The notes beneath the pieces are model-generated. The model was not told where the DNA came from. It saw only the letters and a list, made by a program, of their open reading frames with translations, and ran no database searches. This document shows positions 47,436 through 53,741 of a DNA stretch of 64,000 bases, one piece after another (position 1 is the stretch's first letter; each line of letters opens with the position of its first letter). The position numbers and the translations under genes are program-made. Origin of the DNA: Phototrophicus methaneseepsis (GTDB taxonomy: Bacteria > Chloroflexota > Anaerolineae > Aggregatilineales > Phototrophicaceae); the NCBI RefSeq assembly GCF_015500095.1, contig NZ_CP062983.1, positions 2,170,001 through 2,234,000 of the forward strand. Direction: 5' to 3'.

Positions 47436-47501
47436 CTTGACATTATCTTGACGATTATGATGCGCTTCTTGCCCCGAACTTGAGATGCACTGTCCTAAAC
47501 T
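47436..47501 (+). promoter_or_regulatory. Phased CTTGA repeats with -10-like hexamer
   Basis: CTTGA occurs at 47436, 47447 and 47479, and CTTGC at 47468, giving steps of 11, 21 and 11 bp. TAAACT, a -10-like hexamer, begins at 47496, exactly 17 bp after the start of the last repeat. The same geometry is seen upstream of kimA (51575-51640). A response-regulator (KdpE) site is inferred. The small membrane protein gene begins 52 bp past the hexamer. Confidence 0.6.
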
Positions 47502-47553: not shown

Positions 47554-47781
47554 ATGACTCATCATCAACATTTTCCATGGATACCTTTTATAGGGACGGC
47601 CTTTGTTGTCCTGACGTTATGGGGTCTCTTTGCGGCTCTACCTGAGCCGTTGATCGTTTTGTTTTTCGTGGTTGGTGGCTTTATTCTCAGCGCGATGGCT
47701 CTCTGGCAGCATGCCAATATGGCGTCATCAGATGAAGCCTGGTGGCAGGATGATCAATGTTCTGGCTGGCGCGGTTATTGA
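47554..47781 (+). CDS. Small two-helix membrane protein upstream of kdpD
   Basis: 75 residues from the ATG at 47554, preceded by GGAAG. Two hydrophobic helices (IGTAFVVLTLWGLFAALP and LIVLFFVVGGFILSAMALWQHA) are followed by a short acidic, tryptophan-containing tail (DEAWWQDDQCSGW). It lies between a phased CTTGA array and kdpD, on the same strand. It is longer than KdpF (about 29 residues) and not obviously related. A role in the potassium locus is suggested by position only. Confidence 0.6.
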   Translation: MTHHQHFPWIPFIGTAFVVLTLWGLFAALPEPLIVLFFVVGGFILSAMALWQHANMASSDEAWWQDDQCSGWRGY

Positions 47782-48006: not shown

Positions 48007-50736
48007 ATGGGTGCGTTTGTGTCCAATAAATCTGAAAATTTCGATTCAGGGCGTCCTTTTGTGGGCGGGCCTGTCCGTGATGGTCAACTTCGTAAGGCGT
48101 CTCATGACACGCGAGTTGAGCAAGCGAAGGCTCGGCGCGGCAAGCTGCGCATCTTCCTCGGATATGTTTCCGGCGTGGGTAAGACGTATGCCATGCTGGA
48201 GGCGGCCCAATGGCGGCGCGTCGAAGGCGCAGACATCGTTGTTGGCTATGTCGAAACACATGGATACCCTGATCTTGAAGCATTGTTAGAGGGTTTGGAA
48301 GTCGTACCTCGTCGTGAGGTCGATTATCGTGGGATGAGTCTGGCTGAGATGGATACTGACGCGATTTTAGCTCGTCAGCCACATATCGTTCTCGTGGATG
48401 AACTGGCACATACCAATGCGCCGCATTCACGACATCCTAAACGATATATGGACGTCGAAGATTTGCTCGATGCGGGCATTAACGTCTATACGACGGTTAA
48501 TGTACAGCATATTGAGAGCTTGCGCGACGTCATCTCCCATATCACGGGCATTTATATTGATGAAACCGTGCCAGATTACCTGTTTGATGCTTCTGATCAA
48601 ATTGAGCTGATTGACATCGTTCCAGAAGATTTGCTGCGGCGGCTGGATGAAGGCAAAGTTTACGTTTCCGAATTAGCGGAACGCACAATTCGGAAGTTCT
48701 TCCGGCCAGGGAACCTGACGGCTTTGCGAGAACTGGCTATGCGCCAGACGGCTCGCCGTGTTGATCACCAGATGCGCGCCTATATGCAGACGCGAGACAT
48801 CCCAGGCCCATGGGCTGCTAGCGAACGCTTGCTGGTTTGCATCAGCGCCAGCCCTATGAGCGGGCGGTTGGTACGGACGGGATGCCGCCTTTCTCAGGAA
48901 TTGGACGCAGAGTGGTACGTTGTATACGTCGATGATGCCGCACACACACCGCTCGATAATACGGACCGGGAGCAGCTTAACGAGACGCTGAATCTTGCGG
49001 AAAGCCTCGGTGCACGCGTCGATATGATTACAGGCACATCTGTAGCGGATGCACTCGTCGCCTATGCTCGCCACAACAACATCACGAAGATCGTCATTGG
49101 TCAGCCGCTGCGGCCCCGTTGGCAAGAAATGTTATATGGCTCTGTGGTGACGCGCCTCGTCCGCCAGAGTGGCCCGATTGATATTTACGTGATGAACAGC
49201 GGCGATCAACAGCTAACGCCTAAGCCCCGGACGAAGCAGCAGTCCCAAATTGACCAGGCTACAGATTTGTTCAAAGCTGTGGCGATAGTGTTGTTAGCGA
49301 CCCTGGCAAGCGCTTTGCTCAATGTGATGGTCTCGTTGAACCCGGCGAATCTCGTCATGTTCTATCTGCTGGCCGTGGTGATTGTCGCCCTGTGGCTGGG
49401 CTATGGTCCCTCTATCGTGACGGCGATTTGCAGCGTCCTGGCCTTTAATTTCTTCTTCGTACCCCCGCAATATACTTTGCAGGTGGCAGATGCGCAGTAT
49501 TTGCTGACCTTCCTGGGGCTGTTAGGGACGGGCATTGTCATTGCACGGCTGACGTCACGGGCGCGCAACCAGACGGAAGCTGCTCGTCAGCGAGAACAGG
49601 AAACAGCCCAGCTCTACTCTTTGAGCCGCGAGCTTTCAGCCACGGTGGAGCGGAGCACGATCGTACAGCGTATCGTCAGCCACACATATCAGACGTTCCA
49701 TTGTGAAACAGCGCTCTATTTGCCAGAGGCCGGTGGCTTGAAGTTGGCTTATAAGACGGATGGCTTCCAATCGGAGAAGGATGAAGCCGATCTTGCGCAA
49801 TGGTCTTATGAGCAGGCAAAACCAACGGGCAAGGGGACGAATACAATCCCCAGAGCTGTCGGGCATTATGCGCCATTGCGCACCGCACAGCAGACGATTG
49901 GCGTGCTCGTTTTGCACCTGCAAAAGCCGATCTCTCTCACGCAGCAGCGATTACTGGATGCGTTTACCACACAATCTGCATTGGCGATTGAAGCCGTCCA
50001 ACTGGGGGAAGAAGCGCAGCAAGCGCGCTTGCTGCGAGAAAAAGAAAAGCTGCAATCTGCCGTGCTGAATTCCATCTCCCACGATTTACGGACGCCGCTG
50101 GTTTCTATTACGGGTTCCCTAAGCACGCTCCTTGAGAGCGACACGCATTTTGATGAAGCGATGCAGCATGATTTGCTCACAGGGGCTTACTCAGAAGCTG
50201 AGCGCTTAAATCGCCTGGTTGGGAATTTGCTGGATATGTCGCGGTTAGAAGCCGGTTCCATGAAGCTGAAGCGCGACCTATATGACCTATCAGAGGTGAT
50301 TGGGGTCGCGCGCTCCCAACTGCGGGAGCAGCTTGCAGGGCGCCAGATCATCATTAATATCCCGGATGATTTGCCCATGATCCCCATTGACCTGACTTTA
50401 TTTGCACAGGTTATCGTGAACCTGTTGGATAACGCGATGAAATATTCCGAGCCAGATACACCGATTGAAATTGGTGCGATTCAGACGGATGACCACATCG
50501 AGATTTCTGTAGCGGACCGGGGTGTGGGCATCCCGGAAGACGAAATACCACACATATTTGAAAAATTCTACCGAGCAACCACAGTGAACGGCCAGGGCGG
50601 CAGCGGCTTGGGGCTGTCCATCTGCCAGGGCATTGTCGAAGCTCATGGCGGCAAGATATGGGTTGAAAGACGATCGGAGGGCGGTACATGTTTTATAATC
50701 AGCCTATCACTCCAGCCAGAGAACCTGATGCTATGA
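48007..50736 (+). CDS. kdpD: Potassium/turgor sensor histidine kinase KdpD
   Basis: Membrane sensor kinase that phosphorylates KdpE when potassium is limiting. 909 residues in the canonical order: N-terminal KdpD domain with a P-loop (GYVSGVGKTYAMLE) and DELAHTNAPHSRHPKRYMDVEDLL; universal-stress-protein domain (about 275-395, beginning LLVCISASPMSG); four clustered helices (about 420-520); GAF-like domain; HisKA with phospho-acceptor His692 (NSISHDLRTPLVSI); and ATPase domain (NLLDNAMKYS, DRGVGIPEDE, GGSGLGLSI). Its stop overlaps the kdpE start as ATGA. The kdpFABC pump genes are absent here; a KimA-type importer follows instead. The ribosome binding site is weak. Confidence 0.95.
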   Translation: MGAFVSNKSENFDSGRPFVGGPVRDGQLRKASHDTRVEQAKARRGKLRIFLGYVSGVGKTYAMLEAAQWRRVEGADIVVGYVETHGYPDLEALLEGLEVVPRREVDYRGMSLAEMDTDAILARQPHIVLVDELAHTNAPHSRHPKRYMDVEDLLDAGINVYTTVNVQHIESLRDVISHITGIYIDETVPDYLFDASDQIELIDIVPEDLLRRLDEGKVYVSELAERTIRKFFRPGNLTALRELAMRQTARRVDHQMRAYMQTRDIPGPWAASERLLVCISASPMSGRLVRTGCRLSQELDAEWYVVYVDDAAHTPLDNTDREQLNETLNLAESLGARVDMITGTSVADALVAYARHNNITKIVIGQPLRPRWQEMLYGSVVTRLVRQSGPIDIYVMNSGDQQLTPKPRTKQQSQIDQATDLFKAVAIVLLATLASALLNVMVSLNPANLVMFYLLAVVIVALWLGYGPSIVTAICSVLAFNFFFVPPQYTLQVADAQYLLTFLGLLGTGIVIARLTSRARNQTEAARQREQETAQLYSLSRELSATVERSTIVQRIVSHTYQTFHCETALYLPEAGGLKLAYKTDGFQSEKDEADLAQWSYEQAKPTGKGTNTIPRAVGHYAPLRTAQQTIGVLVLHLQKPISLTQQRLLDAFTTQSALAIEAVQLGEEAQQARLLREKEKLQSAVLNSISHDLRTPLVSITGSLSTLLESDTHFDEAMQHDLLTGAYSEAERLNRLVGNLLDMSRLEAGSMKLKRDLYDLSEVIGVARSQLREQLAGRQIIINIPDDLPMIPIDLTLFAQVIVNLLDNAMKYSEPDTPIEIGAIQTDDHIEISVADRGVGIPEDEIPHIFEKFYRATTVNGQGGSGLGLSICQGIVEAHGGKIWVERRSEGGTCFIISLSLQPENLML

Positions 50737-51419
50737 ACAAGATGAAAGTGCTCATAGTAGATGACGAACACGCGATCCGCCGTTTTTTGCGGACATCGCT
50801 CGCGGCACATGGCTATGATGTGCATGAAGCGGCCACAGGTGAAGATGCGATTTTACAGGCCGTCAATGTGCAGCCAGATCTCATCATCCTTGACCTGGGC
50901 CTGCCCGATATTAACGGCATCCAGGTAACGAAGCGTATCCGTGAATGGGCAAAGACGCCGATCGTCATTTTGTCTGTTCAGGACCAAGATTCTGATAAGA
51001 TTGAAGCGCTGGACGCGGGCGCAGATGACTATCTGACCAAACCATTCAGCGTCGGGGAACTGATGGCGCGCTTGCGGGTGGCTATGCGCCATACCTTCCA
51101 ATCGGAGCCTAAGCCTTTGTTCGAGGTGGATGGCTTGCGTGTAGACCTGGCAGCCCGCCGGGTGACGTGCCGGGGGGAAGAAATCCAACTGACGCCCACT
51201 GAGTATGATTTGCTGCGCGTGATGATCCAGAATGCGGGCCGCGTCATGACGCATCAACAGCTCTTGAAGGAGGTACGCGGGGCAGGCTACCAGACGGAGA
51301 CGCACCTGCTGCGCGTCCATATGAGTAACTTACGGCGCAAACTGGAAGTTGACCCGACGAACCCACAATACATATCGACAGAGCCAGGCGTCGGCTATCG
51401 TTTATCTGTCGATTCCTGA
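50733..51419 (+). CDS. kdpE: Response regulator KdpE (OmpR family)
   Basis: Transcription factor activated by KdpD. 228 residues from the ATG at 50733, which shares ATGA with the kdpD stop; an in-frame start at 50688 inside kdpD is unlikely. The receiver domain shows Asp10/Asp11, phospho-acceptor Asp54 (LIILDLGLP) and Lys103 (TKPF). The C-terminal winged helix contains IQLTPTEYDLLRVM and VHMSNLRRKLE. OmpR-family proteins bind direct repeats about 10-11 bp apart, and such CTTGA repeats stand upstream of kimA and of the unit preceding kdpD. Confidence 0.94.
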   Translation: MNKMKVLIVDDEHAIRRFLRTSLAAHGYDVHEAATGEDAILQAVNVQPDLIILDLGLPDINGIQVTKRIREWAKTPIVILSVQDQDSDKIEALDAGADDYLTKPFSVGELMARLRVAMRHTFQSEPKPLFEVDGLRVDLAARRVTCRGEEIQLTPTEYDLLRVMIQNAGRVMTHQQLLKEVRGAGYQTETHLLRVHMSNLRRKLEVDPTNPQYISTEPGVGYRLSVDS

Positions 51420-51574
51420 TAAGCCATTGTGATAGCGTGCTTCTAAAGATTAATTTTTGGATTGTATCAATCATTTTAGTGCGCAAGCTGCATCCTCCAT
51501 ATTGATCCCACTGATGTCACATCAAGGGGCCTAAAATTGTGTCGTTGCTGCCTAAAAACGGCCATTCTGGGCAC
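51420..51574. other. Intergenic DNA upstream of the kimA control region
   Basis: No gene is seen between the kdpE stop codon and the repeat array. No clear terminator hairpin follows kdpE, so some read-through into kimA is possible. A c-di-AMP (ydaO-type) riboswitch was looked for and not recognised. Confidence 0.45.
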
Positions 51575-51640
51575 CTTGATGTTTTCTTGATGTCTCCTTG
51601 ATATACCTTGACCCCTTCTTGACGTGTCGTCTGCTACCTT
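51575..51640 (+). promoter_or_regulatory. Phased CTTGA array and -10-like hexamer of kimA
   Basis: Five CTTGA direct repeats start at 51575, 51586, 51597, 51607 and 51618, with steps of 11, 11, 10 and 11 bp, so all face the same side of the helix. A TGC-preceded hexamer TACCTT at 51635 begins 17 bp after the start of the last repeat. This is the layout of an activator array bound by an OmpR-family regulator; KdpE, encoded next door, is the obvious candidate. Confidence 0.68.
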
Positions 51641-51665: not shown

Positions 51666-51688
51666 GACACCCTTTTTTGACGGGTGTC
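51666..51688 (+). repeat. Hairpin in the kimA leader
   Basis: GACACCC (51666-51672) pairs with GGGTGTC (51682-51688) around a loop containing six T. It lies between the CTTGA array and the kimA ribosome binding site (GGTGGAG at 51703). It may affect translation or mRNA stability. Confidence 0.5.
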
Positions 51689-51719: not shown

Positions 51720-53741
51720 ATGAACATGACTGACTTCAAGCGCGTCTTGATTGGTCAACCGTTCCGGACCAGCCAGGAAGCCCATGAACGTCTTGACAAA
51801 GTCCGAGCGCTGGCTGTTTTCGCTTCTGACCCGATTAGTAGTAATGCCTATGCCACAGAAGCGATCATGAGCGTACTGATCGTACTCGGCAGCAGCGCCT
51901 TGCATTTGACGCTGCCGCTGGCGATGGGTGTCGCCGCGCTCGTCTTGATGGTGATTTTCAGCTATATACAGACGATTATGCACTATCCCGATGGTGGTGG
52001 TGCTTATACAGTGGCTAAGGATAACCTGGGCCGCTTACCTTCACTTCTGGCAGCGGGTGCCCTGCTGACAGACTATGTGCTGACTGTATCCGTATCGGTT
52101 GCGGCGGGTGTACGCGCTGTAACATCAGCGATCCCAGAGATCTACGATTACCGCGTGATTATCGCGCTGTTAGCGATTGCCCTCATCACATGGATTAACC
52201 TCCGTGGTGTGCGCGAAAGTGGTACGATCTTCGCATTCCCGACGTATTCATTCGTTGCAGGCGTCCTGCTGACGATTGTGATCGGCCTGGTTCGCTACTT
52301 CGGTATTCTGGGTGCTCCGGCCCTGCCCGTCTTCCATGATGCTGTCCCGGCAGAGGAGACGCTAACGGGCTTTGCCTACATCTGGTTGCTTTTGAGGGCC
52401 TTTGCGGGTGGTTGTACGGCCCTGACAGGTATTGAAGCCATCAGCAACGGCGTGCAGGCCTTTAAAGCGCCTGAATCTAAAAATGCTGTCAAGACAATGG
52501 TGGCGATGGGCGTCATTGCGATGTCCCTTTTCGTCGGCATTACCTTCCTGGCAACCCATATGCACCTCGTCCCAACTGAAGAAGGGGAAAGTATCCTCTC
52601 CCAGATGACACGCCAGATTTCCGGCGGTGGTATTCTCTACTTCTGGGTGCAGTTGTTCACAGCGTTGATCCTATTCCTGGCTGCGAACACAGGCTATCAG
52701 GACTTCCCGCGCCTGAGTTCTTTCCTGGCGAAGGATGGCTTCTTGCCGCGCTGGATGCAGAATCGTGGCGACCGTCTTGTCTATAGCTCCGGCATCCTGG
52801 TCCTGGCTGCGATCTCGTCCATTATCGTCATTATCTTCCAGGCTAGCGAAATCGCCATGCTGCCGCTGTATGCCCTGGGTGTGATGCTGAGCTTTACGCT
52901 ATCACAGGCGGGTATGTCTCACTTGATGCGGCGCATCAGCAAGTTGAAGCCGGGTGAAGTAGACCACACTGGCGTGACCACCATTCATCACGAAGATGGT
53001 TGGCGCTGGAAGATGGTTGTGAATACGGTAGGTGCTATCACTACGGGTATTGTGTTCCTGATCCTCCTGGCGACCAAGTTTGTGGATGGTGCCTGGATTG
53101 TCGCCGTGGCGATCCCGCTGCTGGTCCTGATGTTCTACAAGATTCACAAGCATTATGAACACGTTGCCCAGAGCCTGACGACAGAGAACTTCGAAGAAGA
53201 AGACCTGGCCCAGATCGCCAATATCGCTATTGTGCCGATTGCTGATGTTCATCGTGGTACGCTGCGCGCCCTGCAATATGCAGCTCGTATCGCAGATGAT
53301 GTCCGTGCGGCCTGTGTGGCGACCACGCCAGAAGTTCATGCCCGCGTTGAAAAACGCTGGATGCGCTTCCCAAGCCTGACCAAAGACATCACCCTGGTGA
53401 TGATCGACTATGACTTCCGCGATATTCTCTCGCCGCTGGCCGCCTACATTGAGAAGGTCAAGCGTGATGAATTCCCGGATAGCCTGATCACAGTCGTCAT
53501 TCCTGAATTCGTACCGGAATCCCAGTTGGCCCAGGGGCTGCACAACAAGACCGCTGACCTGCTGCGTCGTAAGCTGCACTCCAAGCAGGATATCATCATC
53601 ATTGATGTGCCGTACCATATTCTGGCAGATGCAGAACCGGAAGAAGCCGATATCAGCCTGGATAACCTGGAAGCGGAAATCACCGAAGTTAAGGTGGAAG
53701 AACTCCTGGAGCCGTCGGACCCTATCCAGACGACGAACTAA
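51720..53741 (+). CDS. kimA: KimA-type potassium importer (APC family)
   Basis: A 673-residue membrane transporter resembling Bacillus KimA (YdaO), a proton-coupled high-affinity potassium importer. The N-terminal FKRVLIGQPFRTSQEAHERL leads into about twelve helices with family segments ALAVFASDPISSNAYATE, YPDGGGAYTVAKDNLG, CTALTGIEAISNGVQAFK and ANTGYQDFPRLSSFLAKDG. A cytoplasmic domain follows from about residue 490 (ANIAIVPIADVHRGTLRALQYA), with KWRF-like and VPYHIL segments matching the KimA tail. GGTGGAG about 10 bp before the ATG supports the start. Its place after kdpDE behind a CTTGA array suggests KdpE control. General amino-acid permease function is the less likely alternative. Confidence 0.88.
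   Translation: MNMTDFKRVLIGQPFRTSQEAHERLDKVRALAVFASDPISSNAYATEAIMSVLIVLGSSALHLTLPLAMGVAALVLMVIFSYIQTIMHYPDGGGAYTVAKDNLGRLPSLLAAGALLTDYVLTVSVSVAAGVRAVTSAIPEIYDYRVIIALLAIALITWINLRGVRESGTIFAFPTYSFVAGVLLTIVIGLVRYFGILGAPALPVFHDAVPAEETLTGFAYIWLLLRAFAGGCTALTGIEAISNGVQAFKAPESKNAVKTMVAMGVIAMSLFVGITFLATHMHLVPTEEGESILSQMTRQISGGGILYFWVQLFTALILFLAANTGYQDFPRLSSFLAKDGFLPRWMQNRGDRLVYSSGILVLAAISSIIVIIFQASEIAMLPLYALGVMLSFTLSQAGMSHLMRRISKLKPGEVDHTGVTTIHHEDGWRWKMVVNTVGAITTGIVFLILLATKFVDGAWIVAVAIPLLVLMFYKIHKHYEHVAQSLTTENFEEEDLAQIANIAIVPIADVHRGTLRALQYAARIADDVRAACVATTPEVHARVEKRWMRFPSLTKDITLVMIDYDFRDILSPLAAYIEKVKRDEFPDSLITVVIPEFVPESQLAQGLHNKTADLLRRKLHSKQDIIIIDVPYHILADAEPEEADISLDNLEAEITEVKVEELLEPSDPIQTTN

Follow-up and report, generated by a model that had tools for sequence, protein, structure and literature searches.

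A putative KdpE-dependent repeat array upstream of kimA, a potassium importer gene of Phototrophicus methaneseepsis

The two-component system KdpDE is best known as the switch of the KdpFABC pump, and the potassium importer gene kimA mainly as a target of cyclic di-AMP. In the window analyzed here, i.e., the whole stretch of 64,000 nucleotides from the Phototrophicus methaneseepsis chromosome (NZ_CP062983.1), a series of CTTGA repeats lies between kdpE and kimA. This arrangement raises the question of which regulator reads the repeats and whether kimA is one of its targets.

A first, sequence-only reading had claimed five CTTGA copies at steps of 10–11 bp, and all five were found exactly at the positions given, starting at 51575, 51586, 51597, 51607, and 51618 (steps of 11, 11, 10, and 11 bp; mean 10.75). 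It had further placed a −10-like TACCTT 17 bp behind the array. This distance holds when counted from the start of the last copy, but amounts to 12 bp from its end. The features of this region are:

51575–51590, plus strand: predicted distal KdpE-type box with CTTGA half-sites at 51575 and 51586 (offsets 0 and 11 of the array common to relatives)
51597–51601, plus strand: extra in-phase half-site between both boxes, with CTTGA at this offset in just 4 of 93 arrays
51607–51622, plus strand: predicted proximal KdpE-type box with CTTGA half-sites at 51607 and 51618 (offsets 32 and 43), occupying the −35 place
51635–51640, plus strand: predicted −10 element TACCTT, 12 bp past the last half-site
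51666–51688, plus strand: hairpin GACACCC-N9-GGGTGTC, within the 5′ leader predicted for kimA
51720–53741, plus strand: kimA, encoding an APC-superfamily potassium importer (predicted function; AA_permease_2, match to 6S3K)

The KimA protein aligns with the solved KimA structure 6S3K over residues 6–634 (E 7e-127), and no NCBIfam family was matched. Two CTTGA copies separated by 4–7 bases are expected 0.65 times in the window and were observed five times, four of them in the kimA array. In the genome scan proposed by the sequence-only reading (5.63 Mb), three copies with gaps of 5–6 bases occur nowhere else than in front of kimA (three overlapping matches; reversed control 0). Upstream of the array, ACATCAAG at 51519–51526 is the reverse complement of CTTGATGT at 51586, possibly by chance.

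In relatives, four copies at offsets 0, 11, 32, and 43 recur before several kimA homologues, namely those preceded by kdpE. The equivalent of the middle copy at 51597 is usually absent, and the four copies form the conserved part. Allowing up to three mismatches, this four-copy pattern was found at 40 sites in the genomes of 24 of 61 relatives (reversed control 4). With up to two mismatches, 59 sites were found in 44 of 396 genomes of the class Anaerolineae (reversed control 9); the reversed-control sites were counted only, without gene context. The surroundings were compared for all 59 class sites and for 28 of the 40 sites in relatives, which mostly lie near kimA or kdp genes, while the remaining 12, all with three mismatches, were left aside as probable chance matches.

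According to our own reading of the locus comparisons with KimA, KdpD, KdpE, and KdpABC, 54 of the 59 class sites precede kimA, kdpA, kdpD/kdpE, or related genes; four have no reference gene downstream and one is cut by a contig end. The targets are kdpA (19), genes of the kimA family (17), kdpD/kdpE (12), and other related genes (6), with kimA taken as any tblastn match to the KimA of the window down to 30% identity, including two cases with a Usp gene first. The six other targets comprise a Na/Ca exchanger gene before kdpDE (twice, once Pfam-typed), a ClC channel, a KdpB-like ATPase, an APC permease with Usp domains, and a small gene divergent from kimA. Among the 61 relatives, KdpD scored above the cut-off in 9 of the 10 genomes that carry the array at up to two mismatches vs. 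11 of the 51 without. At this limit the array is absent in 11 of the 20 KdpD-bearing relatives, several of which carry one at three mismatches.

Among 83 distinct arrays, which stem from fetched regions leaning to kdp/kimA loci, include related genomes and are therefore not independent, TAnnnT starts 12 bases past the last copy in 56 cases vs. 0 to 6 at each of 21 other offsets; the remaining 27 arrays lack it at the fixed position. A few overlapping registers of one promoter are contained in this set (loci L123, L131, L150, L151, and L169), and four loci whose downstream region holds no reference gene (L154, L189, L190, and L191) were removed before the −10 offset and profile counts. By consensus scan, no sigma-70-type promoter pair was found; a TTGACA-like −35 is missing at the usual distance, and no intrinsic terminator was found. 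Based on the −10 at its fixed offset and the missing −35, the proximal box appears to take the place of the latter. In PhoB-dependent promoters, the direct repeats of the pho box replace the −35 about 10 bp ahead of the −10. The proximal box in front of kimA would stand in for the −35 in the same way, but its sequence and its target genes differ.

The number of copies deserves a closer look. The sequence-only reading had spoken of five in a row; five copies are indeed present, but two boxes, each with a pair of half-sites, plus a bridging half-site describe them better. Within 93 distinct arrays, CTTGA occurs at offset 22 in four (the window array included, and one of the four probably a register shift), at offset 21 in one, and at offsets 16–20 or 23–27 in none. 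One relative (G047) carries three boxes before kimA. Taken together, the copy at 51597, seen in few arrays, and the three boxes in G047 indicate that the copy number varies in helical steps. Such variation is compatible with a tunable array.

The conservation of the array before kimA was examined with a profile trained on 40 arrays at kdpA, kdpD, or kdpE, from which kimA sites and the window were excluded. It was scored on the plus strand of up to 500 bases upstream of kimA (about nine loci are shorter). The kimA homologues, 80 kept of 173 and 54–80% identical, came from an alignment-based search, after a search with one protein as query recovered no relatives; some of the 80 loci are the same records as genomes used to discover the array. 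The scores fall apart into 16 homologues at 22.6–58.7 and 64 at 1.7 or less, with L207, which carries its array on the opposite strand, counted as array-less, and the maximum over 4000 first-order randomized sequences was 9.5. In the window itself, only 51575 (50.5) and 47436 (44.6) stand out, followed by an overlapping register at 7.3.

A kdpE match lies upstream of kimA in 14 of the 16 loci with the array vs. 2 of the 64 without (p 9e-12), and for KdpE proteins at least 55% identical the counts are 13 of 16 vs. 0 of 64 (p 2e-12). The two array-bearing loci without an upstream kdpE are located beside kdpA/kdpB and on a 4.8-kb contig, respectively. The expected conservation in related genomes thus holds where kdpE is linked to kimA but fails for the 64 of 80 homologues without an array in the scored stretch, and KdpE control of kimA would be confined to a subset.

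The second site found by the profile and the genes between it and the kimA array are:

47436–47483, plus strand: further predicted KdpE-type array, ahead of the kdpD operon and with one mismatch to the four-copy pattern
47496–47501, plus strand: TAAACT, predicted as the −10 of the kdpD operon, at the same offset as at kimA
47554–47781, plus strand: small membrane protein, first gene behind the kdpD array, with two predicted helices by eye and the end WWQDDQCSGWRGY
48007–50736, plus strand: kdpD, full-length sensor kinase (PF02702 at 1.5e-92, Usp, DUF4118, HisKA, HATPase_c)
50688–51419, plus strand: kdpE, OmpR-family response regulator (open frame with ATG 50733 as possible start; Response_reg, Trans_reg_C)

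An OmpR-family regulator gene is therefore located directly upstream of the array, as the sequence-only reading had noticed. Its best NCBIfam model is KdpE (2.2e-75; 253 bits, below the equivalog cut-off of 325), and 115 of 232 alignment columns are identical to KdpE of Escherichia coli. Receiver and winged-helix domains are present, and the phospho-Asp and DNA-contact residues D52, R193, R200, and T215 are kept; the last three are reported to be important for DNA binding in E. coli KdpE (PMC3264566, in part). In a KdpE tree, 16 of the 17 rows in the group that contains the window protein are kimA-linked; with an SH-aLRT of 90, below the 95 mark, and few kdpFABC-linked rows, this grouping is given no weight here. 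KdpD passes PF02702 with 309 bits (cut-off 26.1) and has KdpD as its best NCBIfam model with 829.8 bits, below the equivalog cut-off of 1123. The E. coli-type motif RXXXR-X8-WXAVY and the motif SXS-X20-FTAXY have been described for the Usp part of KdpD (PMC4686210, in part). By eye, the window protein reads RXXXR-X8-WYVVY, which is near the former, and has SAS at the spacing of the latter without FTAXY. At six loci with a KdpD relative beside kimA (L202, L204, L211, L215, L228, and L230), the match to the window KdpD begins at residue 420–444, so that the KdpD and Usp domains at the N-terminus seem to be missing from these relatives.

The E. coli KdpE site consists of the half-sites TTTATA and TTTACA, 11 bp apart, and its footprint spans −72 to −50 (PMC3264566, in part). 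The kimA array likewise shows pairs of 6-bp direct half-sites with a 5-bp spacer, corresponding to a pitch of 11 bp, and half-sites starting with TT, as TTGA is found in all five copies. The T-rich spacer is also shared, with CTTTT in E. coli and TTTTC in the distal kimA box. However, the full E. coli half-site TTTA(T/C)A is not present, since every half-site has TTGA for TTTA. Moreover, the array comprises two boxes and a bridging half-site, its target is kimA instead of kdpFABC, and the proximal box lies at the −35 place and not at the distance of the E. coli footprint. On these features, the array is classed as a predicted KdpE-type site and not as an E. coli box. A 19-mer derived from a consensus agrees with the E. 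coli K-12 KdpE site in 15 of 19 bases, and with a profile of the first box this site scores 11.2, the highest value in the 10-kb E. coli kdp locus but only narrowly ahead of the next (9.3). The KdpE site of Mycobacterium smegmatis has been reported to be unlike other KdpE sites (PMC5401905, in part).

We consider it likely (about 0.87) that the five repeats form a KdpE-dependent regulatory array which acts as an activator promoter for kimA. Recognition of the repeats by KdpE, or by a close paralogue, is well supported at the level of comparison: the array and its fixed spacing, the target genes kimA, kdpFABC, and kdpDE throughout the class, the link to kdpE, and the likeness to the E. coli site all point to it. 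From this, we infer phosphorylation, binding, activation, and a response to potassium. Upon potassium shortage, KdpD would phosphorylate KdpE, of which one dimer would bind the distal box (51575–51590) and another the proximal box (51607–51622), at a distance of 32 bp along one face of the helix. Standing in for the missing −35, the proximal dimer would then recruit RNA polymerase to the −10 at 51635, and the half-site at 51597 may bridge both dimers. The sequence-only reading had suggested a cooperative array with a graded response, which may be so, but in E. coli the isolated DNA-binding domain of KdpE is reported to bind the half-sites without discernible cooperativity (PMC3264566, in part).

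Enterococcus faecalis possesses both systems, KimA and KdpDE, and KdpE control of kimA is not described in the accessible part of that report (PMC9945522). The literature searched, as far as its text was accessible, contained no report of KdpE controlling KimA. Within these bounds, the regulator family is known and the site related to known ones, while the architecture and kimA as a KdpE target appear to be new.

An improbable alternative is that a paralogous OmpR-family regulator, e.g., the kdpE-like protein beside a second kimA in the same genome, reads the arrays, either by itself or competing with KdpE. A pitch of 10–11 bp is also seen with other members of the OmpR family. Direct repeats in general are common targets of these regulators (PMC3264566, in part), kdpE-like genes do adjoin the second kimA, and arrays of a CTTGAG type stand at other genes in another class. 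Against a paralogue, the arrays are located at kdpDE and kdpFABC themselves and go together with a linked kdpE, and the kimA box resembles the E. coli KdpE site.

Among 151 genomes of the phylum, the array pattern was matched in 17 (reversed control 2). Outside the class, kdpA is preceded by an array in one single genome and in five genomes of genus g271; in the latter, TTTGA or GTTGA is seen by eye at the fifth-copy offset. Further matches, such as those in genus g280, lie at other genes. In g280, also outside the class (L295–L300 and L306), CTTGAG-type four-copy arrays were observed, with TATAAT at the same offset in five loci (L295–L298 and L300), as well as a second array type. The CTTGAG-type arrays precede an APC permease and the second type Usp genes, in two checked loci each. 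A related regulator may thus read a similar code in g280, perhaps a sister code.

It is less likely still that kimA is controlled mainly after transcription start, by a leader hairpin or an RNA switch, with the array in a minor role. A hairpin does follow the predicted start of kimA and could be an attenuator or a stabilizing stem. Hairpins followed by a T-run are also more common upstream of kimA homologues (18 of 81) than upstream of the other long frames at these loci (28 of 446), but the same scan did not pick the hairpin of the window. The motif (G/A)ACACCC...GGGTGT(C/T), often ahead of a T-run, occurs in only 6 of 18 array-bearing kimA leaders, the window's included, which rules it out as their general feature. 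Cyclic di-AMP riboswitches act on kdpFABC in Firmicutes (PMC6488665, in part). The two situations are alike in that potassium importers are regulated ahead of translation, but no such riboswitch reached the threshold near kimA: a search for RNA families between 47300 and 54000 yielded four matches, which all stayed far below their gathering scores and lie outside the leader of kimA.

Finally, a chance repeat without regulatory role can practically be dismissed: single CTTGA-type pairs do arise by chance (10 matches in the genome with up to one mismatch, three of these inside the two window arrays; reversed control 3), but the triple array is unique in the genome, its spacing and −10 offset are common to many genomes, and the class-wide pattern and the kimA profile test refute plain chance.

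If the repeats are a KdpE-dependent promoter, the regulator would also act on its own operon. The array at 47436 would autoregulate the operon of the small protein, kdpD, and kdpE, and a weaker array at genome position 693663 would drive a second operon. The latter (693663–696892, L163) comprises a small protein of the same family, a kdpE-like regulator, and a kimA paralogue whose product is 44% identical to the first KimA; its array reaches a profile score of 30.0, below both window arrays. Further downstream, 2.4 kb beyond the second kimA, a single box of good quality, CTTGATACTTTCCTGATGCC, was noticed at position 699245 together with a poor second one (L278; profile 14.0), with no clear target gene seen.

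Neither KdpA nor KdpC was found in this genome (G000), and their absence is fairly firm because the assembly is a single contig, 95.7% complete, and both proteins are missing. Among the 61 relatives, KdpD scored above the cut-off in 20, KdpA was found in 16, all with KdpD, and four genomes have KdpD without KdpA (G000, G024, G026, and G045), the absence of KdpA not being firm in drafts. KdpD is encoded twice in three genomes (G009, G054, and G059), near kdpA and again near kimA, and in G047 kdpA, kdpD, and kimA all lie within 12 kb. With KdpA and KdpC not found, KdpDE appears to be rewired to KimA in P. methaneseepsis, where on genome content it probably drives itself and kimA without KdpFABC. 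A tentative extension, to which we give slightly less than even chances, is that KdpFABC is gone from this Anaerolineae lineage and that KdpDE, KimA, and the small protein, with its WWQDD...GWRGY end, form a self-contained, autoregulated potassium-starvation module whose response is tuned by the number of boxes (two, two and a half, or three).

Should the KdpE reading hold, switch and transporter would have been recombined, with KdpDE controlling a different importer and persisting where the pump is not found. The arrays would also offer a code by which KdpE sites could be recognized throughout this class, whose members are mostly uncultured, and potassium regulons deduced from sequence, and the natural variants in box number would be material for the idea of a graded response.

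The small membrane protein encoded at 47554–47781 matches no Pfam family, and no NCBIfam model reached its cut-off. Its family is characterized by a length of about 75–90 amino acids and the C-terminus DEWWQDDxASGWRGY. In addition to the window, members were found at L163, L197/L124, L198, L199, L200, L202, L206, L148, L133, and L239, of which those outside the whole-genome scan had been chosen as kimA or kdp loci. The whole genomes of the 61 relatives contain five copies in four genomes, each adjoining kimA or kdpD.
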